Source of the DNA: Colius striatus | Lineage: Eukaryota > Chordata > Aves > Coliiformes > Coliidae | Direction: 5' to 3' | Length of the DNA: 64,000 nucleotides | Assembly (NCBI RefSeq): GCF_028858725.1 | Contig: NC_084761.1 | Location: 33,138,501-33,202,500, forward strand | Shown here: positions 8,923 through 37,654 of the stretch, one piece after another | Layout of the letters: each line of letters opens with the position of its first letter | Position numbering within the stretch: the stretch's first letter is position 1 | Position numbers and translations under genes: made by a program | The notes under the pieces: model-generated | What the model was told of the DNA's origin: nothing | What the model saw: only the letters and a program-made list of their open reading frames with translations | The model's database searches: none

Positions 8923-9055
8923 TTAGGTGTCAGCTTTTCCATATGTCCCTTCTGGAGGTCTGTAGTACTTTGGGAAAGCCATCAGCTGTATCATGTTGAA
9001 TGCATACTTTCTGCATTTGATATTCTTCAGTACATTCTCTATGCGGCATCCTTCT
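8923..9055 (-). CDS. INPP4B: INPP4B terminal coding exon, alpha form
   Basis: This exon encodes the soluble C-terminus of inositol polyphosphate-4-phosphatase II, which removes the 4-phosphate of PI(3,4)P2 to give PI3P and damps AKT signalling. After an acceptor CACTAG it completes an Arg codon (phase 2) and reads E-G-C-R-I-E-N-V, then [23 protein letters not shown] and TAA at 8923-8925. The 43 full codons match the known INPP4B ending almost residue for residue as I remember it (Ile for Leu before Q-L-M-A-F). The region follows the phosphatase active site and closes the catalytic domain. The open frame on the opposite strand here is a shadow. Confidence 0.97.
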
Positions 9056-9314
9056 CTAGTGAAAGGGGGAAAAAGTACAACTTCATGAAACACAGAATAA
9101 ATAAATATGCTTTATTTGTTCATTGCAGAGTTTCAGCAACAGTTGAAGTAAAAATAACAAAGATTCAACTCTACATTTTTGTTCTCCACAAGTGATGATA
9201 CATCTTACAAAATTAAATCCAAGGCCAGGCCCAGTACAGTTATTGCCCTCAGAAACACGTGGTAAGATTCCCTTTCCCCCCTAGTATATTTGCCCTTGAG
9301 GTTTAAAGTTTAGT

Positions 9315-9335
9315 AAAAAAAAAAAAAAAAAAAAA
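9315..9335 (+). repeat. A21 homopolymer
   Basis: An uninterrupted run of 21 A on the plus strand (T21 on the transcribed strand), about 260 nt upstream of the alpha acceptor. It is too far away to be the polypyrimidine tract. Confidence 0.95.
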
Positions 9336-10305
9336 TTAATACTTTAATGATACATTGTTTTAATTCCATAAATATATTTGCCTTTTAAACCTTCTCATAT
9401 GTTTTTTTTTCTCAAATTCTTTGCTATATATGTGAGAATACACATTGCTCTATAAATACATTTTCTAGGAATAAGGCATTTTATTAAGTCTGGCCCTAGA
9501 AATTTGTGAAGGAAAGTTTAATCTCTGCTTCATTTCCTGTATGTTTAGCTTTGCAATGAAAAAAAAAAGAGAATGGCTTTTCAAACAGCCTGATCCAACT
9601 CTCTGCTTTATGAAGGAAGGATGTTCGTTCACATACAGTACAAAAGTCACAAGTGCCAAAGGGGTGCATCAAGACAGAAACAGGACTTGGTTAAAAAGAA
9701 TATGAAAGTGTCTTGAAAGCAAAAGCAACTAAAGCAACAATTTCAAACAGGTTAATTTCATTACAAAACAGAACTTACTCTATTCCATTTAGTTACTTGA
9801 CAGAAAAGGGTTAGTAGTAGCAAAGTAATAATCATTTGTTAAACAAAAAAGCTCTCATCAGCTAGTAACAATGAAAAGAACACAATGAAAGTTCCATCTA
9901 ACAAACCACTGCCCTGTAATATTTGTCTAGGTGTTAGCTTGTGTTGTGCAAATTAATTCTTCTTTTTTTTAAAAAAAATCAGACTAGTTACTCTGGAAAG
10001 AGGGATTCAAGCATTCAGGATTCCACATCTTCTTCTATACAGTGACAGCATTCTAAGTGGGCATTCTTTGAGTTAATTACAGTGGGAAAGCTTTACCATG
10101 AACAGAAAGAGCAAATCAATTCACTCAATGCATAGTATACTTCTTAGAGTTCAGAAAAAAAGTAACAAAACCACAGTACATTGCAGACATTTGTATCTTA
10201 GAGACCAATCCTTGGAGTCTGAGACTGTAGAAATATTACAGCGTAACTCCTTTTTCTAAAGTTAGTTTGTTGCTGTTTGTAGAAAAGAAAGGAACACAAG
10301 TGAAG

Positions 10306-10311
10306 TTTATT
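10306..10311 (-). promoter_or_regulatory. INPP4B: Poly(A) signal overlapping the beta stop codon
   Basis: The minus strand reads CAA-TAA-AC, so the beta stop codon TAA lies inside a canonical AATAAA hexamer. A TGTGTTCC-TTTCTTTTC stretch follows 8-25 nt later and can serve as the U/GU-rich downstream element. Cleavage here would leave a 3' UTR of only about 10-30 nt. Use of this signal is inferred from the pattern. Confidence 0.6.
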
Positions 10312-10481
10312 GATATTTGGCTAATAGCAGAGCAAGACTTAAAATAAGCCACACAACCAGCAAGTGTGAGCTGACAAGCAGCAAGGCGACAGGATAGAAG
10401 TGTCGAGAAGTTGGCTTGTTATCAGTTAGACAGCCTGTTTCGGGATCATCCGATTCATTCAGTGCTCCCTGGGTTTGTCTG
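10307..10481 (-). CDS. INPP4B: INPP4B alternative terminal exon, beta form (hydrophobic tail)
   Basis: A polypyrimidine/AG acceptor (CCCCTGTTTAACAG) precedes a phase-2 frame that joins the active-site exon exactly as the alpha exon does. It completes one codon, adds 57 residues and stops at 10307-10309. Residues 1-28 are polar with an acidic patch (E-S-D-D-P-E). Residues 29-54 form one hydrophobic segment ([18 protein letters not shown] then S-L-A-L-L-L-A), followed by K-Y-Q. This is what a C-terminal membrane anchor looks like. A mouse Inpp4b beta isoform with a hydrophobic C-terminus and Golgi localisation has been described (from memory); I infer this exon is its counterpart. Choosing it over alpha would replace the last 44 residues. 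The acceptor is a tandem CAGCAG, so the exon may also start at 10478. Confidence 0.85.
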
Positions 10482-13400
10482 CTGTTAAACAGGGGAAGTT
10501 AGGAACAAATAGAACAGCATTTAAACAGCAAAGAAAGCCAACATGTAGGTATTTTGACAAAGTGAAACTATATATAGCCATTTTGATGAAACAGAGTTAT
10601 GCTAAATACTTCCACTGTATTTACCGCGTCCTACAGCTGACATGGGAAGCACGATGACTAGGTGGCTAATATGTTATTCAGCCTGCTAGGTGCCTTAGAT
10701 TAGTATTCAAAAGTTAATATGAAATAACTTATGAGATGAACTATACTATCGCTAAAATGAACACACACACTGAACAGAAATGAAACCAGGAAGTTAAAAA
10801 CAATGTCAAGGAAGCAAAGGAAAAAAAGATCACAAATACATCACAATGCAACACTGACAAAATAGCGTCTCCATGGTGTTCAAAGGCTTTTTAGTCCTTC
10901 TTCACTACTTATTTAGGAATTATACAGGCAGAAATAAAGGGCACATGCTCCTCTTTGAGAGAATTAATAGCTATTCTAAAATAGTATTAAATGATGGTAA
11001 ATTGACTTCTTCAAAAATTCATCAGTGCTGATGACTCAACAGCAGTTCTTTTTATTTAAAATGCTCACACCTACATTCCTGTAGGAAAATTGCCTTCTAC
11101 CCTGTTCAGTCAATGTAGGTAGGAACTGATCTGCTTAAAGCAAAGTTCTACAGAATGACCGTGAGTTGTGCTGTCACTTTCCTACTCCAGCAACAAGGGA
11201 ACTTTCAAATCACTGCCAGTCTGTTCCTATTGTAGCTCTGGTAGCTTCTCTACAAGTAGAATGATGCATACTTCAACAATATCTTTTCAGTCTTTCTGAA
11301 TTTAACTTTATTTGCATTCACTCAGGAACTCTGTGGACTTCCTTTGGGCAGTGAGGACTGATATGATCTTTTTCTATTGCCTGCTAATATTCCAGGATGA
11401 AAAGATAACTCTCAATTTTTCTCTGTGGTCTTAAGAACATCCAAATATATCAGATTACAAGACAATGATTTTTCAGAAGCCCATGTTCCAAGAATGCTGT
11501 TTTATTCCAAGAAGAAAATGCTGTCAGATCACAAGAGGCCATAGGACAGTAAAGGTAATATCATGTTATCCCAGGTAAAATGAGAAGAGTGCATAAAAGA
11601 CAGCAGAAGTCACTTCATCTTACAGAAAGCCTGCCTTTCTGATTCACATGTTGCAAAGTAGTGTTGTGTTTCTTGAGCTTGGATAGCAAGAGAGATACAA
11701 GAACTACATTTACAGGTGGGATCTTAGGAAAGGGATCCTTCCAGGTTAAGTTCTTAATTTTTTTCTTTGCTTTAACTATCCAGTCTATATGTTACACTAA
11801 TAAATAGCATCACCAATACTATTTTAAATAGCAAAATAAATGATAAAAAAATAAAATCCCTAATATTTGGATTTAAGTCAAAGCAATTAGTGATGTCAGC
11901 GTGTCTGCCACTCTGGTCTACAGTTTTCAAGTGTCCGTGGGTCAAACTAGGACAGAACTCAAATACTATTTTAGACAAAATCCTCTCAGAAACTAGCTGT
12001 ATATTATGCTTTGGCTGACACTGAAATAAATAATGCTGTGTTCTGTATCAGACCACTCCACAACTTCCTTCCTTTTCTGCTCACAGTGATAACGTTGCCA
12101 TTTCTGAATCAGTTATGAGGACTAACTGTATTGGTCTCTGTTAATTTTCTCCTTAATCATTTTTTGAAAACATGCTGTTTACTGTTTCTCCTTTCTTACC
12201 TTCTACAGGATCCCACAAGTCTGCTTCTTTGACCCTTTTTTGCTGTCCTCACATTCATTTTCTACTCTTGAAGGTGAGTCTGCTGGTTTCCGCTTACCCC
12301 CATTATGCCCACAACTAACAGCTCTAGCTCAGCCCTCAGAGTCCCATCTATTCAGCCCGAGTCACTGAGCCCATGTGTTTTTGGACTGTCCTTCTGGGTG
12401 TTTCCCACCACAGACTTCACCTGTGTGCCTGTGGTCAGAGCAGATGCAGATACTGAACTCTCAAAAGATCCGTCTAGGCAGGAACAAAGTTCAGCATTGT
12501 CAGCACAATCACTACATTAGCCAGTGTTACATACCATTTGGGATAGCCTTAGCTTTGCATGTTAATAGTTTATTCTAAGTAGGTTGAGTTACACGCTTGC
12601 AGGTTGCCCCTACAGGGATGAACCCTCTTACTTCTGTGGTGTGCCTTGTTCAGTTTTGCTCCTTATCTCATTGACAACACGACTGTCTTTTATCTATGTT
12701 GTTACAAGTCCCATTAGCATCGGTGAGATTTATGCAGATATAACGATGGAAATACAGCTAAAAGCCATTTGCTCATTTTTTTTTTTTTTCAATTGAAAAG
12801 CCTACAGTACATTTGTTCTTTGATATGCTGAAAAGAATGATCAGTGCCTTTGAACATAAAAAGTTCTGTCTTCCTCCCAGGGAAACCACAGTGAACAGCT
12901 GATGCAGAGGGACTTCTGTTCCACAAATTAGTCACATCATTCTATGCATGATTCCATAAGACATCCTCAAAATACAGCAAGAAGATCCAACTCCATTATT
13001 AGTTACCTAAGAACAGGTTGAGCAGAATACTTAAACATGCTTTTAATTTAATAGGAATATTTGATCACGGTCAAATGCCTTTCTAAGCTGTGCTAATACT
13101 TTTCAATGCACTGTAGTGACAGTGTCTTCTAACACATCTTGAAGTGTTCTCCACAGTGACTAATGTATCTAGTTAAACAAAGCGAGGCCTGACACCCAGC
13201 TGTCAGCAGCGTGACAACTCTGCTTCCCCTGGCTCATCATAATTTGCAGAAGTTTTAGTGCAAACAGCATGAATCCAGCTGGTGCCATGTCAGCTGGACT
13301 GATTTGGCTTCTGACTCTCAGTACTACTAGAACAGAGTGCTGCCTGACCCTGTTGTGGTGTGAAGGTATAGTCATAGTACTGGATGTTCTCTCCAACACA

Positions 13401-16400
13401 AACAATACTCTAACAGCTCTGAACTCACACCAAGGGAAGGAAGAAGACTCCCAAAATATCCAGTGAGTTTTTATTTCACACAGCTGCAGTTTAAAGAGGA
13501 ACAGTGAAAGCTTCTAAATCTGTAACATCTGGGGTAACAAACACCTCTCTAACCTGTAGTACTATTTCTATTCATTTACTTTCAAATTGCTCTTCTGAGG
13601 CCTACGGCACAGCACAAATACATCATAACAGCCAAGGGTGCTGTAAGTTTAATGACGATATAACCATTGCAGTCTGCCTTCTATCTCACTTGGTGTTTTA
13701 TCATCTTAAACTCCTATTGGGATAATGCTGTATGCCTATCAAATGAGACAAAGGCAAAACAGCAGGTATTTTCTGTTGTTTTTAAGTTCTGATGATAAAT
13801 TGTTTGAAGCTCTAAGCAGTGGAGCAGAGAGAATGAAAATGGTGTGAGGAAAAAAGAAGCCTCTTAAGAGTCCTTATAAAGTCAAGCACAAGTAGGAGGA
13901 CACATTCTGGTTTTTGATTATCAGTCACATGGACATCCCCTGTGTTAGACTTTAGGAGATACATTTTAACACTTTTGGGGGATATGCTTCTCCTGTCAGA
14001 ACTGTTCCAGCTCCAGCTATTAATGACACTGGAAATTGTCCTAAAGCACTACTTCAGGTAGACTAGACAGGCATCCTTCCATCAGCACAAGTGTCCCGTG
14101 TGTAAGCAGTGACTTACTTCAGCCTGAATTCATGTCTAATAGCACACATACTTTAGGAGAATTTTCCTTTTTTACAGATGGACTCAGGCAAGCAGTTTCT
14201 GGGCCTGCTGGGTTTTTCTTGTCAAACTCCAGTGCTGACACAGAAAAACTTCAAAAGCGAGATGCCTCTTTTTAATCCCATCTAACAACAACAGCACAGA
14301 TGTTTCTTCAAATAGAAGGGATGGCTAACAGTTGTCCATCTTACACAATTTTGCTTACTTACCTTTTCTTTTTTATTTAAGGCTATCAGAAGCCATAACT
14401 TTTAGAAAGCAGCTTCTTTAAAGAGTGCTTTCAGTCCTCTCAAAGATTTTAAACAGGATACTGTCTGGTTGCCTTTTTTTTAAAAAAAAAAAAAATTGGT
14501 GTGAAAGCAGCTTAATTTCTATATTATACATGTTACTGTGAGTCACTGAAATGCTTCAGATAAAAGTAAACTGTTTCAACACGCATTCCTACAGATCTAG
14601 AAGGTAACTTTAACTTTTTCAAAGGAGAAAGACGGGCTCCTTTAGCACATCTCCTGGCTGTTACGAAAATGCTGTACATCAAGAAAAATAAAACGTGATT
14701 CAGAAAGAAACAAATTGATCTCAGTCTAGTCTTAGAGGATTGCTGAATCAGAGCAGAACTCAGATAAAACAAATAAAAGAATACTGGGCAACAACGTTTT
14801 ATGTTGAAAGATAAAGCTGATACAATAAAACCTCCAACACTTTGTAAAAAATAAAAAAATCTTTCTACACCGTTTCAAAATGGAAGATACAGGAAGGGAA
14901 CCACCAGAGAGATTTTCTGTATCTGATGCATATCATTGTCAAAAAGTTGCAATATTTTCCTTAAATCTAGATGGTATTAAATATAGTAAAAGATGCTAGA
15001 AAACACCTTTTCTGCTGCTTATGTGATCCTATAATCTCTAATCTGGTTCAAAACAAATGACTGGCAGTACCGGCACTGCTGTGCAGCCTCAGATCTAAGA
15101 ATACTGATGAATACAGTCAGTGATTTGGAGATAGCTGCTACTTAAACACGATACCAATACAGTCTAATACGTTTATCAAATTGTCACAATAATACCCCTC
15201 TTTTTGCTTTACTTCTTGTACTGCAACTTTTTTCTCTATTCTTTTTGCTTTTGACAGCATCTCTTCTAGCATCCCTTCTTCTTCCTTCTCTCCCTTCCTT
15301 GGTTATGAAACATTACTTTTCTAATGCAGTATTTAGGAAATAAAAAAGGAGAGCATATCTTATAACATGAGGCTTGTCCACTGAGTTTGACCAAGCAGCA
15401 GGTTGATGATGTAGTCATGATGACATGATATCTAGATCTTGAAAAACAGTTACTATGGGTTCTCAGTCTGTCCAGAGAAAAAGATTCCATTTGGAGGAGC
15501 TGGCCAGAAACACCACAGTTCTGGAGACTCAAGTATAGTCATGGTAATGAGCTTAAGCACCATTATGGACGGGCCATAATGGTTCAGTAAAGAGCAACAG
15601 ATTAATCCACAGATTGTCTTGCAGTAGCACTTAATAGGAGGCAAAAAGACAAGTGGTCTTACACTCACACAACCACATTCAAGAAAACCCTGTTGTCTTA
15701 TGTGATCATGTTGACAGACATAGGTTTTTTGGAAGGAATGGTCAAGTCAAAATTCAATTTACACTGTTGCTCTCTTTCCCTCTGCTGTGTATGTGTCCTC
15801 ATCGAAGTAAAAATAATTATAAATATACAAGCTTTTCCAAGCTTAGCTGTTTTTCAATATCCTGGGGCAAGTGACAGACAGGCATACCTCACACCTGCTG
15901 GCAGTAAAGCAGCATGGGTCCTGCTTTAGGCTCTGGAACATCTCCCTGCAATCCTGCTCTGCAGCACCCTTCCTGGAAGATGTGGAGTCTTACAGAGTGA
16001 ACTAGGTATTCACAATTTATTACATGATCTCATGTCCTCTCTAGATTCAGAGGAAGACACTAAGTTACTCATGAGATAAAATCTAGTATTTTCCTTTGTG
16101 ACTGGTAAAGACTATCTGCCAGACTGTTCTTCTTCCCTGACATTAAAGAGTAACTATGTGGTAAAATAGTAACATTGACAGAAGTCATATAATGAAAATA
16201 TAATAAAAATAAGCAAAACACTCCAGTTAGAATCACAACCCATTTTCCTCACTGTTGCTTTTGAGCCATTGACAGTAGCACTTTAAATCCACCCTTGTCA
16301 GTTCCCCACTGCTGCAGCTGAGCAGCAAAACCAAGTTCATATTATATCCCTTATCTGCTAAAAGAGATTGCAGGCCAGAGGCCCGCCATGTGGAATCAGT

Positions 16401-17503
16401 CCCTTGGTCATGCCAACTCCCAGGCTGCCCTGGAATCACCCAGAAGAGTGCTAAAATCCACCAAAATCATGCCAGGAAACATTTCATAATTTCACTATAT
16501 AAAATCCCTGAGAAACATTCCCCAGCGGTTTTTAATTTACAAGTATGGGCAGAAACTTCAAGTCTTGCAAAGTCATTCTGGTAACTGTGTGAGAGATTAG
16601 CTTCAGAACTGAAAAATGATGGGTTTGCAGCAGAGATTCTTCTTTACCTGTCAAGACAGCTAAGTAGTTTTTGAAACATGATTTTCACCTCTATTATACT
16701 CCAAGCAAAGGATTTGCTGTTTCATTCTACTATTTACCAATACTGCTGTGCTGTATTACACATCAATGCTACAAAGGTTCCTCTTTTTAGCAAAAAATAT
16801 AGTTCTAATAATCTCCTCAGAAACACTTCTAGAAAGGATTACATATATGGGAAATTCTCAGGACAAAATTGCAAAATCTTTCCTGACAAACCTCTCCTGC
16901 AAAGTTTGAAATTCAATTCAATATCCAACCAATATAAAAGCAAATGCTATCTATGTCTTTGTGCAGGAACACAATCAACCCATAGGCCAAACATTATGCT
17001 TCTTAACGATCTTAGCACATGTGAAATGATGATGACTACATGCTTCAAGTGAGTTCTGAACATACAAGACATTTCCCTTCCACAAAGTTACAGCACTAGT
17101 ATAGTTGGCTAGTGAGTCACACTTATTTCCAGTCTGCTTCTGTCACAATGAGATTTTTACCAAGGATGTGATTATACATTTAGCTCATATAGCACAGTGA
17201 AACATAAACCCATGACAAATTCTTTCTTTCATATTTCTAATCAGGTTTTGAATACTTTCTGTTGACCGTGGAAAATCTTCATGAATCATGCCTTTTGGAG
17301 AAGATTTTTTTTTTTTTAGCCTGTTTTGCCCACGGTAAGGACAACTGCAAAGCTGATTCAAGAGGCAGAAAAGGCTTAACTGCACAACTAAAGAGTCATG
17401 CATGAAGAAGGATTCTTAAAATCTGACAGTAGTTACTAGATGTTCAAATCTATGAGTAAGTTGACAACATTAAGACCAGAAAGAACTGTTGGTGTAAACA
17501 CAG

Positions 17504-19585
17504 GATCATAGAATGATAGAATGGTAGGGGCTGGAAGGGACCTTTAGAGATCATCTAGTCCAACCCCCCTGCAGAAGCAGGTCCACCTAGATCAGGTCTC
17601 ATAGGAACATGTCCAGGCGAGTCTTGAAGACCTCCAAGGAAGGAGACTCCAAAACCCCTCTGGGCAGCCTGTGCCAGGGCTCCGTCAACTTCACAATGAA
17701 ATAGTTTTTTCTTATGTTTAAATGGAACTTTTTGTGTTCCAGCTTCATCCCATTACCCCTTGTCCTGTTGCTAGCTACGATAGAAAAGAGCAATGTCCCA
17801 ACCTCCTGACACCCACCATTTAGATATTTGTAAATGTTAATAAGATCTCCTTCTCAGTCTCCTCTTCTCTAGACTAAACAGCCCCAGTTCCCACAGCCTT
17901 TCCTCGTATGAAAGGTGCTCCAGTCCCCTGATCATCTTGGTGGCCCTATGCTGGACTCTCTCCAGAAGTTCTCTGTCCATCTTGAGCTGGGGAGCACAGA
18001 ACTGGACACAGGACTCCAGATGAGGCCTCACCAGGGCAGAATAGAAGGGGAGCAGAACCTCCCTTGACCTGCTGGCCACACTCTTCTTGATGCATCTCAG
18101 GCTGCCATTGGCCTTCTTGGCCATGAGGGCACATTCCTGGCTCATATTTAGTTTATTATCAATCAGGACTCCCAGGTCTCTCTCTGCAGAGCTGCTTTTC
18201 AGCAGTTTGACCCCCAGCCTGTACTGGTGCATGGGGTCATTCCTTCCTGGATGCAGGACTCTGCACTTGCCCTTGTTGAACCTCATGAAGTTCCACTCTG
18301 CCCAACTCTCAAGCCAGTTGAGATCCTGCTGAATGGCAGCACAGCCTTCTGGGGAATCAGCCAGTCCTCCCAGTTTGGTGTCATCAGTGAACTTGCTGAG
18401 GGTACACTCTGTCCCCTCATCCAGGTTGTTGATGAAGATGTTGAACAAGACTGGCCCCAGAACCAAACCCTGTGGAACTCCCCTGGCCACAGGCCTCCAA
18501 CTCAATTCCGTGCCATTGATCACCAGCCTCTGGGCTCTGTCATTCAGCCAGCTCTCAATCCACCTCACTGTCCGCTCATCCAAGCCACACTGCCTGAGCT
18601 TTCTGATGAGGATGTTATGGGAGACAGTGTCAAAAGCCTTGCTGAAGTCAAGGCAGATGACCCTCATCTAGTCAGCCAGTTATGCACTCATAGAAGGCTA
18701 TCGGATTGGTCAAACAGGATTTCCCCTTGGTGAAGCCATGTTGACTCCCCCTGATAACCATCTTATCCTTCATATGTTCAGTGATAACATTCAGGATGAG
18801 TTGTTCCATCACCTTTCCAGGGATGGAGGTGAGGCTGACCGGCCTGTAGTTTCCTGGGTCGTCCTTCCTGCCCTTTTTGAAGACTGGCGTGACATTGGCC
18901 TTTCTTCAGTCCTCAGGCACTTCACCTGTCCTCCATGATTGTTCAAAAATGATGGAGAGAGGCTTAGCAATCACATCAGCCAGCTCCCTCAGCACTCTAG
19001 GATGCATCCTATCAGGACTCATTGACTTATGAGCCTTAAGCTTGGCCAACAAGTCTTTAACCTCTTCCTCTTCCACCCCGGGCAAGTCCTCTGCTGTCCT
19101 GGCCATTCTGTTATCCTTGCTGGACTGGGCTTCCCAAGGGGCAGCCTTGGCTGTAAAGATTGAAGCAAAGAAGGCATTCAGTACTTTGGCCTTCTCTGCA
19201 TCCTCAGTCACCAGGGCACCCTCAGTGTTTAGCAGCAGGCCCACATTCCCCCTCGTCGTCCTTCTGCTGCTGATGTACTTGAAAAATGCCTTATTACTGT
19301 CCTTAACTTCCCTGGCTAAATTTACTTCTAGAAGGGCTCTAGCCTTCCTAGTTGCACCCCTGCATGCCCTGGCAATGTTCCTATACTCTTCCCAAGAAGC
19401 CAGCCCCTGTTTCCACCTCTCATAGATGGCTGCTTTCTGCCTGAGTTGTCCCAGTAGATCCTTGCTCATCCATGGAGGCCTCCTACCTCCTTTTCCTCCT
19501 TTCTTGCGCACTGGGACACACTGATCCTGGGCTTGGAGGAAGTGGTGCTTGAAGATTGACCAGCTCTCATGGGTACTTCTATCTT
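17504..19585 (-). mobile_element. CR1 LINE, 5'-truncated, ~2.1 kb
   Basis: The 3' end is at the left, with reverse-complemented octamer units (CATAGAATGATAGAATGG) followed by the standard avian CR1 3' UTR. The body encodes most of the reverse-transcriptase half of ORF2 on the minus strand. The endonuclease half and ORF1 are missing, the usual outcome of incomplete reverse transcription. Similarity to the CR1 consensus I know fades at about 19.58 kb. The copy is in the same orientation as INPP4B and lies within its last intron. Confidence 0.93.
17837..19511 (-). pseudogene. CR1 ORF2 remnant (reverse transcriptase)
   Basis: Two long open blocks remain. The upstream block (19511-18906) has the pre-RT region, including P-W-M-S-K-D-L and the [10 protein letters not shown] end. 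The downstream block (18667-17837, 276 residues) has RT motif A (L-D-F-S-K-A-F-D, residues 6-13), motif B ([10 protein letters not shown]) and motif C (F-T-D-D, residues 93-96). They are separated by two Trp-to-TGA stops (18906-18908 and 18672-18674) and a small deletion that shifts the frame just upstream of motif A. The Leu in motif B and Thr in motif C depart from the usual Ser and Ala. The copy cannot make a full protein. Confidence 0.9.
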
Positions 19586-22500
19586 CTCAGTCTATCACTC
19601 AGTCTATGTTGCATTTGTAATTCAGGTCATTTTAAGTGAGGAGCGTGTTGAAGAGCAACATAAATTTGTGTATTTTAACTCAGTGTTTTATATCTGCAAC
19701 TTCAGTTTGAGATAAACAAAAGGAGGAATGTGACTGCTTCTGATTAATGACACCAATTCACATAATCTCATCATGGATTAACCAATGTGTGAATCATAAA
19801 ATAAATAACAGGAAAGATCTGAAACCTACTCTTCCATTTCAAGTAAATAATGTCACTTCATTAATTACTTTCAAGCAGCACGCAGATACTGTTTATTTTC
19901 AACTGCATCAATGGTTTGAGATCTGCTCTGTTCTTATCCCAATCATTCTTTGAGCACTAGTAGCACACACGTTATGTGGGTGTACTTATGTAAGGGGGGT
20001 TTGTATACACATAGATTCCCTGATCACGTAAAATGCACCCAAACCTAATCTTAGCTGGTGCACAAGTGCTGGTACCAGGAGCATTAAATGAAGCAAAGAA
20101 TGCTCCTTTACTTAGGCTAGGTGAGCGGCTAAGAAAAACGACTCATCCCAAAACCACACAGGCTGAGATATGGACTGTAGCAATCTAGTAATTGCACCTC
20201 TATAGTCCTATCAATAAACCACCTTATCTTTTCTTTAATTATGACTAAAGTCAACCTGTTAAGAGCGTTAAAAAATGCAGGTAATATCTTTGAATCTGAA
20301 ATGTACTACCTTTTCCATTCGCTTCCTTCAGAGCCAATGACAAGGCTGGGCTGAATTTGGATCAAGTGCCTTGAAAGCATTCCTCGGCCTTTCTGACAAT
20401 AAGAATGCTGCTGTGGGTTTCTCAGTAAGTTTCAAACATACTCTTCTTCATCATATCTCAGAGACTGAATATTAGCATCACTTTTAAAGCATAAATAGCA
20501 GTACAGAGACAGGGAGAGTGAGGACATGACATCCCATAGAGTTTTGCTTCTACAATTTCTTTTGAAGATTTGAGATCACTATAAACTAAAGATTCTACAA
20601 GCAGTGCATTTACCTTCTGCATCCCAGAGTTTTTGCTAGCAAACACATTATAACATCTCCTCTATAATAATGCTACATTTTCCTTACTCTCACAAAGAAA
20701 GGAAGGACATAGTTTGGCTCAGTGTGGTCATGGTAGTTCACAGTTTGCCAAAGATCAAAGACGCAGTTCTCAGGATATGCTTTATGAACTATGTTCAGGA
20801 CTCTCTAAAGAGAAAAAGTTCATTATACTGTCAGTATCAGTTAATGATGAAGTAAATCAATGACAGATGAAAAAAAATGCAGAGTTACCTCTTGACCTCA
20901 ATTGAAATATCAGATACATTATTTAAAACAAATATATGTATTTTTCTGTATTGCAGATTTTATTCTCTCAAAACCACATGATCAGTAGCGAGGAAACATT
21001 CTCAGCACAATTATTACTATAACATCTTGGGAACTGCAGTTTGCAAAAAGCTACAGGAATCTGCCAATTCCTGCAACTTTGGAGTCATTGGGACAGAGAT
21101 ATTTTAAGAATGAATGTCCCCAAGCACATCCTGGTTTTACCTAGCTGCACGTGGATGTGAAAAGCAGTATAATAGTGGGACCTTGTATTAATGGTGGTAA
21201 TTGCCATCACTTACAAATAAACAGAATGTATATGATTCTTAAAATTATTATAATTGAGGAAAAGAGGGCATTTTACTAAGAAAATTCCAAAGCATATAAC
21301 ATAAAATTGAAAACATCGATACTTTGCAGAAAAGTCATCCACCTATAATCTATTGTTATTTTCTTCTGAAGAAGCAGCATGCCTGTAACACTGTTTAAGC
21401 ATTTCCTTCTTTCTTACCCAGGAAGGGATATGAAACAGTAGTAGGTATAAATCTTCCCTGAGATGGTGGCAAGTTATCTCTGTCTATGATGCACTTTTCT
21501 ATTCTGTGACATACACTGGTTATTTTGCATGCTGGAAGGAAAACAGTTCAAGGAACGTTTCAGTAAGACATCATATCCTGTTTTCCACTCCTTTTATAAG
21601 AATGCAGTTGTCAAGCCAGTCAGATCTGAGAGACATTAATCCTAGTATTGCTCATGTTTCTGATGATGTTTTTCTTTAATCACTAATAAAACCAGTACTA
21701 CTTATTCACATGCTTAAATGTTTGGCTTGAGTAACTGTGAGCCACAGGCCAGGTGGTCAAATAGAGAACTCTACAGTGCAGCCAAAAAGCACATAGGTTG
21801 TTAACTAGAAATTAACTTCATTCCACATTAACTCGTAACCTCACTGGGAATGACGTTGCTTTTCCAGACCCAGTGAGATGTGTCAGCATTCGCAGTCCTC
21901 TCTAGCACTTGCTCATGACCAATGAACTATGAAAAAGTGCAGTCACCAACTGTAGTCAGTCTTTTGGTTAACACTGCATTTCTGTGGCTGTTGGACAGCG
22001 CTTGGAGGCTTCCAGTAACTAAACAATTTCCCATTTTAGCATACATTTACTGCACTGGCAAGAACACAGCAGAGACCGAGACTTTTAAACTGCTTAAATA
22101 ATCCTCTGCCATGAACACAAATACATATGGACAGGTATGCAATGTTGTCTTTTAAAAAGTTCTCAGCCATTCTCATAGTTTTATTCTCAATTAATCTTTA
22201 GTAAAAACTAAATCAGCTTCACATCATCTCACCAAGAACCCAGTCTACACATGCTGGGATCATGCTTGTCTCATTTTATTGGTATTTAATTCTGTATTAG
22301 TTAAAAATAAATCCTGTAATGTGCTATTAATGCACTGCTACTGACAGCTTAAATAAAACCAATAAAACACAAAAGCTGCAATTGAACAGCAAAAGTAATT
22401 AAAAAAAAAACACTGTCAAACTACAGGCATCTTTTGCTATCTCACCAGTATACACAGGGGCAGAATTGGCTTGTCCACCAGGTTAATAAAATCTTTCCTA

Positions 22501-25500
22501 CTCTCTTACAACACAATTAGAGTAAATAAGTAGCAGAAATGCTCTGAAGTATTTTTGTCCAGCTTTGTTCTTTGCATGAATACTTTGCACGAATATGAGA
22601 CTCTAACAAAGCTAAAGGCATGTGAGTGCAGGCCGGCAATTGCACTTGTCAGATGAGTATGTACATTAACGCAGACAGAATATTTTGGTGCATGAAATAA
22701 TAAATGACATTTTCCCAGGTATGGTACATAGTTATGAAATACATGCAGAACAATGTAGAAAATTTAAAAGACCATAATCCATCCTAATCTGGAAGTACTC
22801 ACAGTTAATGGACATTTCAGTGGAAAAACAACAGTTTTACATTGGCCCAATAATGTTCTCTGAAGTTCAGAATAATTAACAATAGAAGAAGTAGACAGAA
22901 TGAGGGCGAGGGGTTATCTACCAAAAATTTGCTTCCTCAAAAAGGAAATACTTTATTTAGAAAGCTTTTTCTCCCTCTCATTCATTCAAATTATTAGCTG
23001 CATATTTTTACCACGGAATATTAGCTATAAATAAGCTCTTATTCATAAATAAATACATCAAATCACAACGGTAGAAAACTTAGAACATTTACTGAAACAT
23101 TGAAAAGTGTTTTGAAAAATAACTTCACCACATCTATCTAGATAAAACAGCTAAATGTTTGCAGAATTCACCATGTTCCCAAAGCCTGGTAAGATAAAGT
23201 AACTTTGTGTCCAGAAGAGCTATTAAATTATAAAGCTTATATAAAAAAAATCTATACAAACAAGAATTTAGGATAATGGCACTTCACGTACATTGTTTAA
23301 TGGCTTCTGCTCTCTATATAAACAAGGAAACTGACAAAAGTGGATTTTTAAACCCAAAATATGAGTACTTATTTTATCATACAAACTAAGCAGATAAACA
23401 AAGGAAGTAGTCCAAACATTGTACTGGCTGAAGTCTAAACAGCAATCTAACACTGCACTTTTAGCTTCTTTTACATTTTTTAAAAAAAAATATTTAAAAT
23501 AAATAACCTCTGGCTTCCCTGACCCCATGATAGTAAAGAAACCATTGTCTAGAGACAAATTTAAAAATAAGTAGTTTGTCAGTAAAATCTCCCCCATGCT
23601 ACATTTTGACCCCTACCTTTCTTTTACCTCCAGTGGTTTACTAGCCTACAATACCAAATACACTTCCAAGATCTGATCCAAGTCTTTCAAAAGTCAAAAC
23701 AAGTATACACCCTAATTCAGAGCAGGAAGTCTTTAGGTGCCAAATTTACCAGTCCAGGCTGCACATGTCTACAAAACATCCACAGGAGAATTCCAGAGGT
23801 CTTGAATCAAGTAGTTAACCATCCTTCCAAAGGGTATACTGTGAACATGAATTCTTAACCTAGACATTCATACAGTCGGTATCTAGAATGCTATGGTATA
23901 TACAGCTTGATTTTGAGTGTGGCACTGAATTCAGCAGGCTTTGGAAGAAAATCCTCCAATGTCCAAAGTTTTTTCCCCCCACCTTTACAGAGCCCATACT
24001 TGTGCTACCACCATATCCCTTACAAAATGAACCACACAAGTCTCAGATTTTCTTTTGAGCACCATAAATCCAGCCAAATGCAGTGGCTAACAACATCAAG
24101 TCCACTAGACTAGAGATTATTTTTAAAAGACAGTCTTGATTTTCTTCTGTAGTGTGAATAAAAAAGATTTATAAGCAAGCAATTGTCTGTTTTGGGCTTT
24201 GTTACAAAGTAGTACAGAACATTAAGCTTTGCAACAAGACTAAATGTCTTTTTATTTCTCTTTTGGCATTCCATACCCAATGGAGTATGGATAGCAAGTT
24301 CACAGTTTTTACTTTTGCCGTGAAAGATCATTTGACTTTTTTCCTCTACATTGTAATATGTATTTCATTTAATAAACTTTATAATTAAACAACTCCTACT
24401 AAAAATATTTCTCTATTCTAGGAATGCAATTCAGAGGAGGTTCATTTAGTTCCATTAGTTTTAACATCTGTGTTTGAAGTTGCAGATAGTTTCAAAAGTA
24501 GCAATTGAGGTAATACATTGCTTCATTTACAAAGGAAATGGAATGCTTAATGCATTTTGTAATGCAGTAATAACACAGTGTTGGCATTTGCATAAAGCAG
24601 TCCACCGTAATCACAGGTGTTAGTCCTGTCTGGGTAAAGGTCTTTCTACTCTGCTAGCCCAGTTTGGACTCATTATTTCACCTGGTTATAATTATTATAG
24701 AGATCAGTGAAGTCCACACTACTGAAAGCCACATTTGGGAAGGTCTGCTACCTCATCTGTGCCTAGAAAAGCCAAATGGACAGGGAGAGGATGCTTTTCA
24801 TTTAACTAATTGTGTGGACTGTTAGTGGAGAACAGACTGGCCAGAAAGAACTACTCACAGCATTGTAATGGTCTGCATTCCCTTCCAAGCTTGCAATACA
24901 GCTGTTGTGGCTGCTTGGAGCAGGGGATGGGACCGAGCTTGCCAGAAATCTGATTGCAAATTTCTAGACAGTGTTTGCTGGTGTAGTTTCTTCAACTTTG
25001 CTAGAGCTACTCCAGTTTTATTTCAGTTTTATTTTATACTCATGTCAATGAGTATATTAAACATACAGAGCACAAACCAGTATTTTAGAAAAGGTCTACA
25101 TATCCAAATTAAAAGAATTTGACGGAGATGGTGGCTCCCTCCACTGTTATCACCATAGTGTCCTCTGGACTGCACAGCTGGGATTGTGAAACGCTATGGT
25201 GAGTTTTGCTTTCCAAATGTTTATTATTTCCTAGAATGATCACATCATGATCGCCACAATTATTAACTTCTCTTCTTTTGGGTATGTATTTAGGTAGGTC
25301 TGATTCAAACTTAAGTGTTGAATTCCAAATGTTCTTGCTATATTAACTGTAACAGCAAGAAAAGTAGAAAATTTCAATTTTTAATCTGCTCAACAGACAA
25401 ACACTCAGAATGGAACCATGTCTGAAAAATATCTGTAGTGTGTCAGAGCTCACAGGAGATAATCAAAACCATGAGTTCAAATTCATTACCACCTCATTTC

Positions 25501-28500
25501 AAGTTTACCTTGGAATTAAACTTGAATTGAGACTGAAATGAGTTTTGTTATCCTTATTGTGCTACGCAGAGGAAGATTTGTATGACAGGAAGAATGATTG
25601 CCTTTCAAACTGAAAACAATTTGAGAGATTTCTGTCACAAAAATAACTTTTAAAAAATCAGCTAAGATTACAAATACCTTTCTGGATCATTCCGCTCTTT
25701 GTTTGCTCAGCATCCTCTTACTACTAAATGCCCTAGTCACTACTAAATGAAGTGACTACATTTTCCCAGCACCTCTACCTCAGTAAAATCTTCACCTACA
25801 AACAAGTACCTTCACCTGAAGACAGTAAACCTAGAGGGCAACAGAGGGCATAAAGTTTTCAAGTGTTTTAACTAAATTTTACTTGCACGTAAAACAACTA
25901 GAAACCACAGTGATGTAGAAATAAATGACTCAAAAAACTGTTTCTTGTCTTGGAAAAAAAATTGTAAAGTTGGAAGCCATTTTTAAAAATGTATTTCACT
26001 ATGTTATAGACTAAAACAGCAACATATGACAAAATGAAATGCAGCAATTCCTAGTTTTCATTTTCTTTGACTATAAGTGTGTTTGTGCAGGTTACATCCT
26101 ATACCACAAAGACCAATGTACTTAGGAGGCAAAACTTTGCTGTCAAGCTTGTCAAAGCACCACCAAAAGGCGATTTCAATTCTCCTTAGCCAGAAGAAAT
26201 ATTTTGCAGACTTTTAATCCTCCAAATTAAAATAATACAAATTACAGCCAGACAGACAATAACCTTGGTCACAAAAAAACAACACTTCTGTGGAGCAAAG
26301 TAAGCATGATGTGTAAGGTTATATCCACCTTAAGGGCCTTAGGAAACAACTTAATTTTCCCTTCAAAAAACAACAAGGGGAAGTAAGTTGCAATAAGAAG
26401 ACAAGACAATATCCTACAGAAGGCAGCAAGGCAGGTTAATAGGGGAAAACCCTACAGAAGTAAAATTAGTATCTCTCTACTTGGCAGCACCTCTTGCCCA
26501 TAAGGGAAAATAAACAGCATAGTAGTCTGACATGTATTAACTCACTTTAAGAATTAATTCAAGTAGCATCTTCACATAGCAAATTAATCTGTTAATCTGT
26601 GTAACGGAAATGTCAAACTATATTTAAAGCAATCGTCTATAAATTTGCTGATAATTCCATGGCAGTAGCAAATTTTTGCAGAGAAAGAAGGCATAGGGAG
26701 CAACCTTCTCCCTGAGGCAGCAATGCAGTAAGAAAGGAAGACAAGACTTTATTCAGCATGATGTTGGGGGAGGACTATCCAACAACAATCAGGCAGTTTA
26801 CACACCAGTTCATCAGTGTCCTGGAGGGAAAGAGCCTTTAAACATGCGCTGCCTGCGGTATGTCAGCATGAATCCAAGTAGCAACAAGGAGTGGGAAGAG
26901 ATAATTATTAATGTGCAGAACAGTGAATGCTAGTAAGGCAATGAACCTTATTTATAAGCCTTGCTATTGCATTCTGTTTAAGAAAAAGTAGATCCAAATT
27001 CAATTTCCCACAAAGGAGAGGACTGTGTTAGTCTTGACTAAGTGACTTGACATCTCTATACCTTCTTTCTCCTATTAAAAAGTGAAAAAGATACAAGTGC
27101 ATTTCTTTATCTTAGCCTTTGCTTGGCAGTTACATACTTTTTGAGTCAAGAACGTTTGACATTAAGTAGTGTTTGCACATCTGCTCAAATCTCAGCTCTT
27201 GACTTACTTTTACTACATTTGACTAGTGATTATTAAATGAAAGGTATTAAGTATATACATATTAGGTATTAGAAAGTTTCACATTTTCTTCAGGAAACAC
27301 ATTTATGTTACATCTTTTTTATAAGACTTAAATGAGAAAGAATACCTAGCAACATCAGCTAGTAGTAATATTAAAGTAGGATAGAGCATATTTTAAGTGT
27401 AGATTGAAGAGAACAGAAGGTGGAGCAACAAACACTGAACATGCCATTTTTAAAAAACCTCATGAATAAATAGTCTAACCAGGTATAACCAATATTATAA
27501 AATGAGACTGTTCTGTAATTCCAGAATCAATCCATGGACTTTCGAGAATAGAGGTATTATTCTAACTGCTTGCCTTGTCCTAATGCTACTTTGATAATTT
27601 CAAAACCAGCTAGTATTGCCTTTGACAAAGCACCAGTTTAGCCATTTTTATTAGTTTTCCTGGGGCGTTCAATGTAATAGCCATTTTATTAGCTGAAATA
27701 AACTTAGAACAGAGCTCATGCCAGTTTTGGTTAACCTAAATGAGCTAAAAAACCTACCTGACAAAAATACCCAAAACCAAAAACACAGAACAAACCAGAC
27801 TAAAGGTATTGGATTTTTATTTCCTGTCTGAAAGCTGTTATGAAAACCATTCTGCAACAATCTACTGCAGACAATCCCATCTTCTGCTTATCACACCACC
27901 ACAAGGCAGTTTGCTGGGGGTTGTGCAGCAAACCTTCCTGTTGCTGATTACTTTGTATTCTGTAGAAGCTCCCTTTTCAGCAGTTATGAATGAGTTATAA
28001 ACTGATTGAAATTAAAAACTCAGAAACTTTGAAGGACTGATTTTTGCAAAATGCATATGAAAACCATATTACTTTGACATGAAGCATACATTTTTATCAC
28101 ACTTGCCAGTTTACCCAAGACATAAACTGTTAATCAGATCATCATAGAGCCATATCTTTTTTACAAATGTGTGACTATGTGATCATATTGCTTCTTAATC
28201 CTTTCATTTTTCAGTAATCTAAACAAGCTCCTAATTTCTGAGAATGTTGACTGTTGACTGGACTGGGTCTGTGGCTGAGGAGGAAATATTCCTTTTTTTT
28301 CCAATCAAGGTGCAGCTTATTAATCTACTGCTGATAATAATTAATTAGCTGCTGCCTTTTCAGCTTGTCTTCCTGCAGAAGCAAAGGTTACATTTTAGGG
28401 CTTGGTGTGAGGGGAAAGGAGATGCATCTTGCAACCTTTGTCCCTAACACGACAATACTATGAAATCTTTTAAACAGTTGTAAATGAAGCTTCCAAGTAC

Positions 28501-31004
28501 CACAGGCAGAGATATCTATGTCTCCTGGCTCACCAACAGGTAATCTAACTAGGAGGCTGGGTCATATAGTCAAAATATTTCAATCCCATGTCAGAAATTA
28601 CAGAGAACAGTGATTCCCTTTCCACCTTCTGATCTCCCTGGTCTATGTGACCTGCCCAAGCCTTGCCTGGGATCCCAGAACCCTGCACAGGTAGAAACTC
28701 CTCTGGTACCCTCCTGGTGCATTAGGAACATCTCCAACATAGGAAAAAAGCCTGGTGCTTTTCTCACTGCTGGCAGATAATATGCATGTGGTAACAGCCA
28801 GGTGGGAAGAGAAGATAAGCTGGCAGAGAAGTAGGTCCACAGCAAAGCACAAAACCAGTCCTGCAGCTGCACAGCCAAGTCAGTGATTTTGGCATATGGT
28901 ATGTTGAGAATTACAATACAACTATAGCCCCACTAAGTCCCAGTGCTGCAGAAACCACATTAACTGTTCTAACAGTAGGAGTCAACTGTGGAGAGATTTG
29001 GCTGTGCGCTTTGGGAGGAGTCCAACATTTCCTTTGCATTAATTTCCTTATAAACACGTACTTCCTATCTAGAAAGATTATAATAGAGGCTTAGGCTATT
29101 AAAACACAAGTTCACAAAATTATCTCCCAAATTTATCTCTAAACGATCCAGAGAACAAGACAGCGATATAATGCTGCTGACTCTGTTACTGGGTGTAGTT
29201 CTAGCCAACTACAGATAACATCATGGAAATAGGAAATCCATAACAAATACATTATAGTCCAAAAGGAAACTCCTTTGGTCACTCCACTGTAAACAACTAC
29301 CAGGACTTCTACTGGAAGAAAACACTTAAAAACAACTTGCTGCTGCTAGCTACGCCAGTGAAAGTCTGCCAGTGGTTGCTGTAATGATGAGGATACATTT
29401 ACTAAATGTCACACACCAAAATCAGAGCTGCTGCAGAAAGTAACAACTAAAAACCACTCCTAAGACTCACTCCTCAACTCAGCAAGGCTATGGTTCTTCA
29501 AAAAATCATACACTAAGGTGATGCTGCAACAGAGAAAGAAACAGAGAAATGCTCATTGGAGAGAGTTTTGAAACAGAGCAGTAGACTGAAAGGGGGTAAA
29601 AAAAACCAAAACGCAGGGGCTTATGGTAGAAAACTGGAACAGGGATGCTGGATGAGAAGAGATAATGATTATATACAGAGAGTATTCCTACAAAAGAAAC
29701 TAAGTTGTCTGAAGTGATTAAGGGAGCCTAAAATGGGGCAAAAATTGGCCTAGAAGTGACTGTTACCTGCTTTCTACATGAGCCAGCTGGAGCTGTAGCC
29801 GAATACGAAGATATGCCGGATCTGTTATTCCAAAACAACCTTTCTGGAACAGAAGCTAGTTGCTACTCTTTTCTATGTCCTCTCCAGCTTCAGTCTGTAC
29901 ATACTTGGGACTGCAGAAGGAAGTTATGAGCTCTCCCTGCCCACGTTATATTATTCTGAGAAGAATATTGTTTTAGAGGCACATAACTGCTGGAAGAGAT
30001 TGGATCCATGATAATTTTAACCAGCTATTGCATGCTATTACTACCCACTTATTCTCATTTCCTGCTCCTTTCTTATCTAAATTTTAGACCTAGCCGTGTT
30101 GCTTTTCCTGAGAGATTTAGCTGTATGTGGTCAGAGCCACAGTAATTCAGCTGTGGCACATGGGTTTTAACAGGTAATAAATATGCATCCAGAACTTTCC
30201 CCACATGCTCTCAGAGAAAATATTAATTGGAAGAAACCTGGTATTACCCACTCTGAGTGTAATGCATCTAGTTATATCTGATTTCAGGTAATAGTTTTCA
30301 TGCAAGTTCTGCAGAAGCAACAGCATAAGATCCTGTGATTCTGTGTGATAAGGACTACTGCAACAAATGAATGAGGCAATGAATGAAGTCTTCCATGGAC
30401 AGCTAGAAGAATCTCAAAAGTGAACACCAAAGAATATTTCAAGATAACCTAACTGCTTGCATGCTAGGTTTGCTGAACCATGGCAGGTGAAGTCCAGGAA
30501 AATGATGGCCCTGTAATCTATGTATGACACAAGTGACACAAACACTTTACATTAGAAGAGCTTTAGGAGTTCAAATAATGTAAGCACTTTCCTTGTTCTT
30601 CTTTAGTTAATCAAGATTCAGTGTTTAAATTCACTGCTGCATTATTAAGGATCCAGACCCAGGCTATGGTACTAAATGGGAAAGTAAATTTATTGGATAT
30701 GGTTTTTCTTTTGTTTGGCTAGTTTTGAAAACGAAGTGATCATAATATGCATCTGATAATCACTTATACATCTTTCTCACCACCCATACATGATATTTAA
30801 AACATCCGCCAAGAGGGAAGGCACAGCTCAATTCCACATACTCTCATTTTGGTCAAGATATGGTAAATACTAATATGGGCTAGTTAATAGACCATTTACC
30901 CTCTCGTCTCATCGAGAAATGAACAGATCAGAGCAGAGCAATTGAAGAGTAGGGGGAATTTTTGATTGGAATTCTAGTAATTCTAGTTCACAAAATAACA
31001 GATT

Positions 31005-31085
31005 CACAGAACAGTACAGGTTGGAAGGGAGCTCTGAAGATCATCTAGTCCAAACCCCCTACTAAAGCAGCTATCATGTACATCC
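31005..31085 (-). mobile_element. CR1 3'-end scrap
   Basis: The plus strand shows CACAGAACAGTACAGGTTGG, AGGGAGCTCTGAAGATCATC and TAGTCCAAACCCCCTACTAAAGCAG. This is the reverse complement of a diverged avian CR1 3' end. Only about 80 bp is recognisable. It is older-looking than the 17.5-kb copy, with more substitutions in the normally conserved end. Confidence 0.8.
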
Positions 31086-31230
31086 TTAAATGAGAGGGCA
31101 AGGACTCCAGGAAAAAGATCACAGAAAAACAAGGTTTCTTTCATGTCACAAAGCTGAAACTCAAACACGATCAAACACTTTATTTTTCAATGAAAAAGGA
31201 ACTTTTTTTTTTTCTGTAATACACTACAAT

Positions 31231-31283
31231 TGATATATCAGTATGTTCTACTATATTAAAAGATATCTTAGTATGTTCTACTA
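31231..31283 (+). repeat. 30-bp-period direct duplication
   Basis: A 23-bp unit containing AGTATGTTCTACTA occurs at 31231-31253 and again at 31261-31283, with 3 mismatches in the first part. It looks like a small local tandem duplication in the intron. Confidence 0.8.
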
Positions 31284-34200
31284 CACAGTGGTTAAAGTCA
31301 TTAAAACCTTCTGTCAGGTTCTGAGTCCTCTTGGAGCACCTACCATTCCTACATAATCAATGAAGGAGAAACAGGTGCATTTTAAGGACTCATCAAATGC
31401 TGGTGTCAAAATTTAGAGATAATATAGATTGCCTGGGGCACTAACTTCCCCCCATGGACTGATGGGAAAACTAAGCATTTGCTTCAGAAGTTCAAGTCTA
31501 ATGCCTACCAAAAAGCTCAGTGTTTTGGCAACATAGTCTGGGTCACATCTTAAAAAATTCCTGACAGAGTGGCAAAGGTTTTTACTGTTTACCCTTGAAC
31601 ATTATTGTAGGTTCCAGGGGAAGAGCAACTATAATTAAGGTTACACAATGCCTTCCATTAAGATTTTACTTTCAGTTGTTAGTTCATTGTAAGTTCAAAC
31701 CTACAATACCATTTAAAGAAGAAAAAACACAGCTTTTCTTTTCTTGAGATGATTACTAGTAACTCTATGCCGAAGATCAGGATTTCATACTCTGCACCAA
31801 GGTAATAAAGGTATGAGAGATGTAACTACTGTAAGAGTGTGCTCCTGCAAGATCTTGAATCACCTTTTTGTAACAAGCGCTTGTTAAAATTCAGCAGTTA
31901 CATGCTTTGAGGATTCAATCTATGCTGAATGTCTGTCAGGTCAAGGGGTTAGACAAGATTTTTCCTTGCCGTTCTTCTCCCTGGCAGATGATGACCGCTG
32001 CAATACAAAGTGAAAGCAATGAGACAAGGGGACTGTTTCTGCTGTGCTCTCTATGTTGTTATTGAGTCCAGTGCCCAGGCTATGAAGAAAGACAAAAGCA
32101 GCCCCATATGTAGCAGGGGAGAAAGGAACAACCAGAGGGAAACATTCAAGTGATAGTCTGGTGAGAAAGAAGAAGATGATAAAGTTTTCATGAGAATGTT
32201 CTCAGGACTCTGACTGGGGTGTTAATCGGGAAGATGTCTGAAAACAGTATTTGGGAAGAAGTTGGACAAATCAGGTATAGAAGAAATGAAACTTCTTTAG
32301 TCAGCTAGAGGACATTCCCCTGCATAACATCTGATCCCAGTGAAACAGAGCAAATGTGTATTACAAAACAACTGCCAGTTTTACTTACTTTGCCTGAGCC
32401 TCACTGATGACCTTCCTGAACCTGACATGGTGCAAATGAAATGTATTTCCTTCTCTTTTTTTTCTTCCTTTTTTTTTTCCCACTGAATTCTCAAAAAACA
32501 GAGAATTGCTTCAAAGATGCATTATAAAGATCAGTTCTGTGAAGCTGAGTATTTACCTTGGAAAATCTTAGATTTAACACTGTCTTTTCAAGCTACCATT
32601 TGAATCTTTGTCTGCAATCATCGTCTACAAATCCCCTCTTTTCAGAAGGATGGTCATGAATAGACCTTTATTCTAAAAGACTCCAACAAGGCACAAATTG
32701 CATTAATACTTATTACATCTCATGACCACTCCTCTACATTTTGTTTTCCTCTGCACACTGTTGCTTTAAAAAAGCTGTAATTTAATTTTAAAACCCCAAA
32801 TTGATGGAAAAACAGAAAAGGTTACAGAAGAACATGTGCTTCCACTTCTGTGTGACCTATCACACACTGAGTCTATTCCCACGAGCTCATAAGGAGAATG
32901 CCGGGAGATGGGAGAAAGGCAGAGGAAGATCTGCTCATGGATCCCAGTCTCTCATCTTGTCCCTTTCCTTCTGCTTTTTAGTCCTTGTAGCAATCACAAC
33001 ACTGTGCTGTTGGGTATAGGCCCTGCCAGGGCCAAAGTCCATCTGAGCCTGGACCTATGGATTCCATTCAAAACATCTGAAAGTCCCCGAGATTAAAGCT
33101 ATTACAGCTATTCCTCCTTCTCAACTCATGTGTCTTTAAGACCATCTTTAAGAAAAGATGCATTCAAACAGCTCTTTAAAAAGGAGTTATTTGTTTCATA
33201 GCTGGGCCATCAAAAGTCCATAACTAGTTGCCCCGACATTCATTCTTTGTGCTTCAATCAGATGTTTGACAGGTAATTTATCTAAAATAATCTGAAATAT
33301 CCTTGACTGCTATTTCAGGTGAAAATAGTGTGTCCCACAACGAATCAAATTTTATATTCAATGTCTGAAATACCTGACAAGTATTGCACCCTGGTAAAAA
33401 TGATGATAAGGCTGAAAGCCTGAAGGCTTCACCATAGAGAATAGATTTGTCATTTAATTTGCTTGTTTTTACTTTTGAGCCTTTACTGAAAACATGCTCA
33501 AAACCCAGGAAATTCCAAGGTTACTCACTTCCCATTGCCTTCAAAATGAGCTCTGTCACTGAAATAGTATAATTAAATAAGTTCAGAAAATAAAGAAAAA
33601 AACTTTTAAAAAAAAAAGAAAATCAAACAGACTTTACAAAACTGCTTTGTAGAATGCTGTCTTCCAGGGTTTGATGTCCATTAAGCAGTGGCCACCTCCA
33701 AAGATGAAAAGTGGATCGCAACACACACTGCAATGAACTCGGGTAAATCAGTTTTGCCTCTCTACTGTCTCTTTGAACATCATTAACATTAAATGATAGC
33801 AAATACTACTATAATGATGAAGGGAAAAATAAGAAAAGAATATTGATGATAGAAAAAAAATGAAAGTGACAGTAGTGTTATAAATACAATTTTAATATGA
33901 TGTGAATTGCAAGCATTTGATACAGAGGGTATAATATATCGATATTCCTCATTCTGCACTATGCATGTCACTAAAATCAATAGAAGTCACACACATATAC
34001 CACAGAAACTATGATATGTAGAATTATTTATGGAATAGCTGCTTTACATACACATCAATTGCAACATCATAGTGGATAGTGTTACACCCAGAAGACAAAC
34101 CCATGGATTACACATTGTAAGTGAAAAGGCTTTATTTCCTATCATTGTTTCCCCACATTTTTTATAAGCTGCAGGGGAAAACCAATGGAAAGATTTTTGT

Positions 34201-37200: not shown

Positions 37201-37654
37201 ATTGCCATCTGCAACAAATCCTTATTCTGCTTTCACAATATTTTTCTAAGTTTTATACAAATGATTTAATGAGCATGTAAACATTTAAAACAGGAAATAA
37301 CCTTTTTTTGTTTTTTTTTTTAATATGGTCATAGAATGTTGTTAGAATTTCAAGCCTTACAGCACCCTAAGAACTTGTTAAAATAACTGCTGTTTGCCTT
37401 GATTAAAGTCTATGATCAGTGAAGTGACACAAGTTTTCACATATCTATCTCAGAAACTGTTAATTAGTGAGAACACATGCAGTTGAAAAGACCTTGTGTG
37501 CATAAGTGACTTACCAGCTAGCATGCTGCTGGTCAGTTCTCTGATACGTCAGGACTGGGGCCTATCACCCCTTCTCAACCGTCTTTAGCGTGTTCTACAC
37601 TGTAGCTCCTGGCTTAGCTCAAAATGCAAGAGACATGCAAAAATCTCCACATAC

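Follow-up and report, generated by a model that had tools for sequence, protein, structure and literature searches.

A proximal alternative last exon of INPP4B in Colius striatus with a conserved, probably membrane-anchoring beta tail

The minus strand of the window (the whole 64,000-nucleotide stretch of Colius striatus DNA analyzed here) carries the 3' part of INPP4B, and the segment at 10481..10307 on that strand is, with near certainty, the bird copy of the known INPP4B-beta alternative last exon. Taken as a whole, the evidence is very probably best explained by a proximal alternative last exon of INPP4B that would yield a membrane-anchored beta form beside the alpha form. The exon itself is not new: the beta isoform was reportedly described by Norris in 1997 and by Ferron and Vacher in 2006, as related in later papers, and bird orthologues are already annotated. 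Beta isoforms are present in databases for human and for many birds and mammals, so the beta tail is not specific to birds. Human INPP4B isoform 5 is spliced at the same place behind the P-loop exon and ends in an identical 58-residue tail, and nothing of substance separates the known INPP4B-beta from the exon described here, which in this species is known from DNA alone.

Gene model and the two terminal exons

Annotated bird beta proteins were used as tblastn queries, which gave eight coding blocks, and these were then refined by splice-aware joining. The resulting model (all features on the minus strand) comprises seven shared exons with GT/AG borders running from 60011 to 37655, followed by either the beta exon at 10481..10307 or the alpha terminal exon at 9055..8923. 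The first six shared coding exons lie at 59838..60011 (5' end uncertain), 58693..58816, 57553..57670, 52876..53016, 50072..50169 and 45542..45654. The seventh, the 155 nt P-loop exon at 37655..37809, encodes CKSAKDRT, ends in AG followed by the donor GTATGT after 37655, and is the splice partner of both terminal exons. The coding part of the alpha terminal exon (8923..9055, placed by the same joining) reads REGCRIENV...GKADT plus stop and is identical to zebra finch alpha at 43/44 residues. The beta exon sits 1.25 kb upstream of it and joins the C(X)5R exon without a change of frame. Read through beta, the shared exons and the tail give 365 aa, of which 363/365 match the protein of the woodpecker Dryobates pubescens (P0017); over the 307 shared residues P0017 is also the closest (305/307) among the best 120 of 1040 matches, the next eleven of which have 304 or 303 identical. 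Elsewhere in the window, broken reverse transcriptase-like open frames were found at 19586..17602 (minus strand) and at about 39373..41171 (plus strand), which resemble those of CR1-type LINE elements.

The coding part of the beta exon (10307..10481), assigned from its translation and from conservation of the anchor, encodes a 25-residue linker and a 33-residue anchor and closes with TAA at 10309..10307. From the junction 37655 to 10481 the tail is 58 residues, made of one split codon and 57 complete codons. The acceptor is read directly from the letters as a tandem CAGCAG at 10479..10484, so that the exon may start at 10481, in which case the tail opens Ser-Arg-Gln, or at 10478, in which case it opens Arg-Gln; the first acceptor (Ser-Arg-Gln) is used in all proteins among the best 120 of 1040 matches. 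The coordinates, strand, phase and frame given in the preliminary description were checked on the sequence and are as described, and its reading of the segment as an alternative INPP4B terminal exon with a hydrophobic tail agrees with the in-frame splice and with the annotated beta proteins. It had also placed a poly(A) signal after the stop codon. An AATAAA hexamer is indeed present as a putative cleavage signal, with a T/GT-rich stretch just downstream, but its position was wrong, the hexamer at 10311..10306 overlapping the TAA rather than following it. The beta stop and the processing signal thus have bases in common (10306..10311).

Probable transcripts point to mammals. The beta ORFs P0050, P0086 and P0093, of 888, 939 and 938 aa, come from contigs no longer than 2868, 6271 and 4447 bases; among the proteins listed they are closest to pig (886/888), Pteropus (938/939) and Myotis (932/938), respectively. 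The shared INPP4B exons alone span more than 22 kb in the window, and contigs this short have no room for introns, so these three are probably spliced RNA. This suggests that the beta junction is in use in mammals; for the bird it is read from the genome.

The segment coding for the anchor (SRHFYP...AKYQ plus stop, 10307..10408) encodes one hydrophobic helix, predicted from Kyte-Doolittle hydropathy only, that lies in roughly the last 30 residues, as expected of a tail anchor. The preliminary description had put the hydrophobic segment three residues from the stop, and it does end just before KYQ, its best 19-residue Kyte-Doolittle mean being 2.47; elsewhere in P0017 only residues 624-643 reach 1.6, with at most 1.73. 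The hydrophobic tail is therefore probably membrane-anchoring as judged by hydropathy. In the available passage of a review, the C-termini of INPP4A-beta and INPP4B-beta are described as hydrophobic, with possible transmembrane domains, and that of INPP4B-alpha as hydrophilic, mouse Inpp4b alpha and beta being 927 aa and 941 aa long (PMC3206369); this agrees with the preliminary description, which gives hydrophobic C-termini to beta forms of mouse Inpp4b and mammalian INPP4A. The existence of an INPP4B isoform with a hydrophobic C-terminal domain is stated in a passage of PMC10399444, and a Golgi-specific INPP4B isoform is mentioned in a passage of another review (PMC3248162, second-hand from Ferron and Vacher 2006). 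A dissenting view of the anchor is found in a passage of PMC9692390, where putative TM helices in INPP4A and INPP4B are treated as screen false positives, the isoforms being unstated in that passage. The passages of PMC2813875 concern INPP4B exons 4 to 7 rather than the beta exon, and those seen from PMC9531306, PMC7228085, PMC7136497, PMC6563779 and PMC12599262 make no mention of the beta tail.

Conservation and origin of the beta tail

A protein search with the P-loop exon plus tail as query found 1040 proteins, of which the best 120 were listed. The 33-residue anchor is exact in 120/120 of these best 120 of 1040, a count biased upward, as the ranking was made on the P-loop exon and tail itself, and the 58-residue tail is exact in 74/120. 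Carriers of the anchor among those listed include NCBI human isoforms 5 (P0028) and 12 (P0023), other mammals, turtles and squamates, and birds with the exact anchor range from kiwi and tinamou to passerines; the tail is thus found in other birds, whose lack of it had been named beforehand as grounds for rejection. Human isoform 5 matches the sequence here at 58/58 residues of the tail and at 212/256 of the body (Fisher P = 9e-5), and the anchor alone, at 33/33, also exceeds the body (Fisher P = 0.004). Chicken has no such excess of anchor over body (33/33 versus 247/256, P = 0.60). Body alignments of P0079, P0045, P0023 and P0242 were partial or broken, and these proteins were left out of body identity.

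A further search, restricted by length to shorter entries and with all 88 matches listed, gave teleost INPP4B-beta proteins (P0242 to P0244) with 30/33 anchor residues and 11 to 12 of 25 linker residues identical to the bird, so that between bird and teleost the linker has changed far more than the anchor (Fisher P = 0.0007, calculated with 12 of 25). Among the amniotes listed the linker is nearly fixed too. A fairer count than 120/120 was obtained from the rows of two protein searches (P0025, P0245 and P0283 excluded, as they lack the anchor at their C-terminus), in which 144 rows end in a recognizable INPP4B-type anchor: the amniote form accounts for 129 of them, the teleost form for 11 (chosen by that exact anchor, so that their mutual identity is by construction) and a third form for 2, with one row holding a one-residue variant and one belonging to a divergent teleost paralogue. 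The third form occurs in P0256 and P0310, both from assembled contigs, which are perhaps early-branching or duplicated vertebrate INPP4B. The divergent protein is P0281 (Hypomesus transpacificus), an INPP4B-like protein with a much changed beta-type end, VLLVSAHLLVVWLLLLSLVLLARPL. In P0025 (Ophiophagus hannah) and in the fish entries P0245, P0246 and P0283, the beta tail or part of it runs into the alpha ending; these are probably gene-model chimeras.

INPP4A-beta, or type I beta, is the cerebellar isoform of INPP4A in mouse. A bait search found 493 proteins, of which 120 were listed, the named ones being INPP4A-type; among these 120 of 493, 48 have a beta tail, 61 an alpha tail and 11 neither. 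Among the matches listed, INPP4A-beta is represented by birds, mammals, a turtle, an amphibian, a lungfish and teleosts. Both rows from elephant shark in that listing (P0203 and P0221) are alpha, which has no bearing on an absence of beta. The INPP4A-beta and INPP4B anchors align without gaps (YSIPLLALSPNLLIVWLFLSIAYLVAR versus 27 protein letters), and the anchor-only alignment scores z = 8.2 against composition-preserving shuffles, with 0/5000 reaching the score. In both paralogous genes the beta tail follows the same P-loop exon junction and the anchors are homologous. The order of the exons is likewise shared, with beta before alpha (mouse exon 24 before 25, according to a passage of PMC10399444). 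INPP4A-beta differs in having another linker, in ending in LRCK in many proteins where INPP4B has AKYQ, and in carrying SPN in mid-anchor where INPP4B has SSH. Because teleost INPP4B has the tail and INPP4A a homologous one, the beta exon probably predates the INPP4A/INPP4B split, and a single beta exon in the ancestor of the two genes would be the simplest reading of these alignments.

The greater divergence of the linker than of the anchor, together with an INPP4A anchor attached to a different linker, argues that the anchor is under selection at the protein level. An earlier suggestion that frame and hydrophobicity are under selection is upheld by an anchor kept from fish to mammals, and the proposed comparison with annotated INPP4B beta isoforms returned an identical 58-residue tail in human isoform 5 and 30/33 anchor residues in teleosts.

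The alpha ending and the likely nature of the beta form

In beta the tail takes the place of the 44 residues with which the phosphatase domain closes in alpha (the alpha ending), leaving that domain incomplete. The C(X)5R loop CKSAKDRT (exon 37809..37655) lies upstream of the splice and is retained in beta. Three INPP4B rows (including Albula and Takifugu) preserve 38 to 39 of the 44 residues of the alpha ending and a salmon paralogue preserves 36; sequence resembling it also closes three distant ORFs (P0321 to P0323). In PREX1/PREX2 the C-terminal INPP4-like domain shares homology with the P-loop exon and with the opening part of the alpha ending; it differs in that the match ends about 17 residues into the alpha ending, in residues within the P-loop, and in that the aligned part is without a beta-like anchor. 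Since PREX1/PREX2 and P0321 to P0323 match it, the alpha ending looks older than the beta exon on these comparisons.

Structure prediction with AlphaFold gave a mean pLDDT of 69.2 for an alpha fragment (P0270, 31 rows), with 40 to 51 per block in the last 40 residues, and a weak model for full-length beta P0017 (43 rows, mean pLDDT 50.8), with helices at 908-916 and 918-936 at the C-terminus. At E <= 0.001 a fold search with the alpha-fragment model gave 3 matches, all of them PREX1, making PREX1 its sole confident structural match. A Pfam scan of P0017, P0134 and P0201 found no INPP4 phosphatase model, in a scanned set seemingly without PF27561.1, and one C2 in P0134 at 21.5 bits, just below the 22-bit cut-off; PF27561.1 is assigned to most full-length proteins among the matches listed.

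In the mechanism that we propose, pre-mRNA that uses the beta exon and its poly(A) signal would give INPP4B-beta, a C2-domain protein that would lie in the cytosol except for its C-terminal tail anchor, held in an internal membrane, and pre-mRNA that skips the beta exon would be spliced to the distal alpha exon and give the soluble, active phosphatase. Anchored in this way, INPP4B-beta would bind lipids or serve as a scaffold, or else it would be a switch by which alpha is lowered. Because it is without the alpha ending of the phosphatase domain, we think it rather likely that INPP4B-beta would be weak or silent towards PI(3,4)P2 and would have one of these roles. Its paralogue INPP4A-beta is reported, in a passage of PMC10399444, to have no PI(3,4)P2 phosphatase activity in HEK293T cells or, in earlier work, in bacteria or insect cells. 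The literature passages available to us hold no report of catalytic activity or inactivity of INPP4B-beta, and they give no function for it.

One competing account of the exon is an open frame that arose by chance and happens to end in hydrophobic residues; such frames are not rare in this intron. Among the 2062 AG sites of the intron 37654..9056, 7 are compatible acceptors that lead into an ORF of 40 aa or more whose C-terminus is hydrophobic, five of them at a second place (12042..11904) and two being the tandem acceptors of the beta exon; when the intron was resampled (30 first-order Markov runs) the mean was 2.2 sites against the 7 observed. The pattern of splice site, frame and hydrophobicity is thus weak evidence taken alone. 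When an AATAAA near the stop was added, only the two tandem beta acceptors passed, and none did in the 30 resamplings. The second frame, at 12047..11775 (minus strand), has compatible acceptors and the hydrophobic end FIFLSFILLFKIVLVMLFISV, is without AATAAA near its stop, and is probably itself due to chance. For the beta exon chance is ruled out by conservation of the protein: a tail exact or near-exact from teleosts to mammals, and annotated in human isoforms, refutes this account and leaves it a negligible probability. It is decidedly improbable, too, that the importance of the exon lies chiefly in the RNA, with its acceptor and poly(A) site in competition with the alpha exon and the tail secondary. 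Such competition could tune the level of active enzyme, and the overlap of stop and AATAAA, the tandem acceptor and the proximal position would suit it; constraint on nucleotides could also contribute to a tail that is identical to human, linker included, at 58/58 residues when the body stands at 212/256. Against it, the linker retains only 11 to 12 of 25 residues between bird and teleost where the anchor retains 30/33 (Fisher P = 0.0007), and INPP4A has a homologous anchor with a different linker.

The preliminary description had gone further and proposed an active, tail-anchored PI(3,4)P2 4-phosphatase that would place lipid turnover on an internal membrane. Retention of the active-site loop CKSAKDRT in beta speaks for it, as does a passage of PMC3248162 in which local regulation of membrane PI(3)P by INPP4B is thought possible and the Golgi-specific isoform is mentioned. 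The beta form, however, is without the 44-residue alpha ending, which is itself conserved and recognizable in far relatives, and INPP4A-beta was inactive in HEK293T cells and in bacteria or insect cells (passage of PMC10399444). With the alpha ending lost and the paralogue reported inactive, a second, membrane-placed PI(3,4)P2 phosphatase is unsupported and we consider it unlikely. Our preference is for a form anchored in the membrane and probably weak or silent as an enzyme, rather than another active phosphatase.

More tentatively, INPP4A-beta and INPP4B-beta may be an ancient silent anchored pair, retained from a time before the INPP4A/INPP4B split, whose anchor is read by a specific membrane partner, a possibility that we regard as somewhat speculative. 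The anchor varies very little at its leucine, valine and isoleucine positions and at a polar notch in its middle (SSH in INPP4B and SPN in INPP4A), on which grounds its helix would be part of a defined complex, and beta would tether, sequester or compete rather than hydrolyze.

INPP4B is studied as a tumor suppressor and as an enzyme of trafficking. The anchor of its beta form is conserved more strongly than the enzyme body when the bird is compared with human and with fish. Should beta be silent, expression studies in which all INPP4B transcripts are counted as enzyme would mislead.
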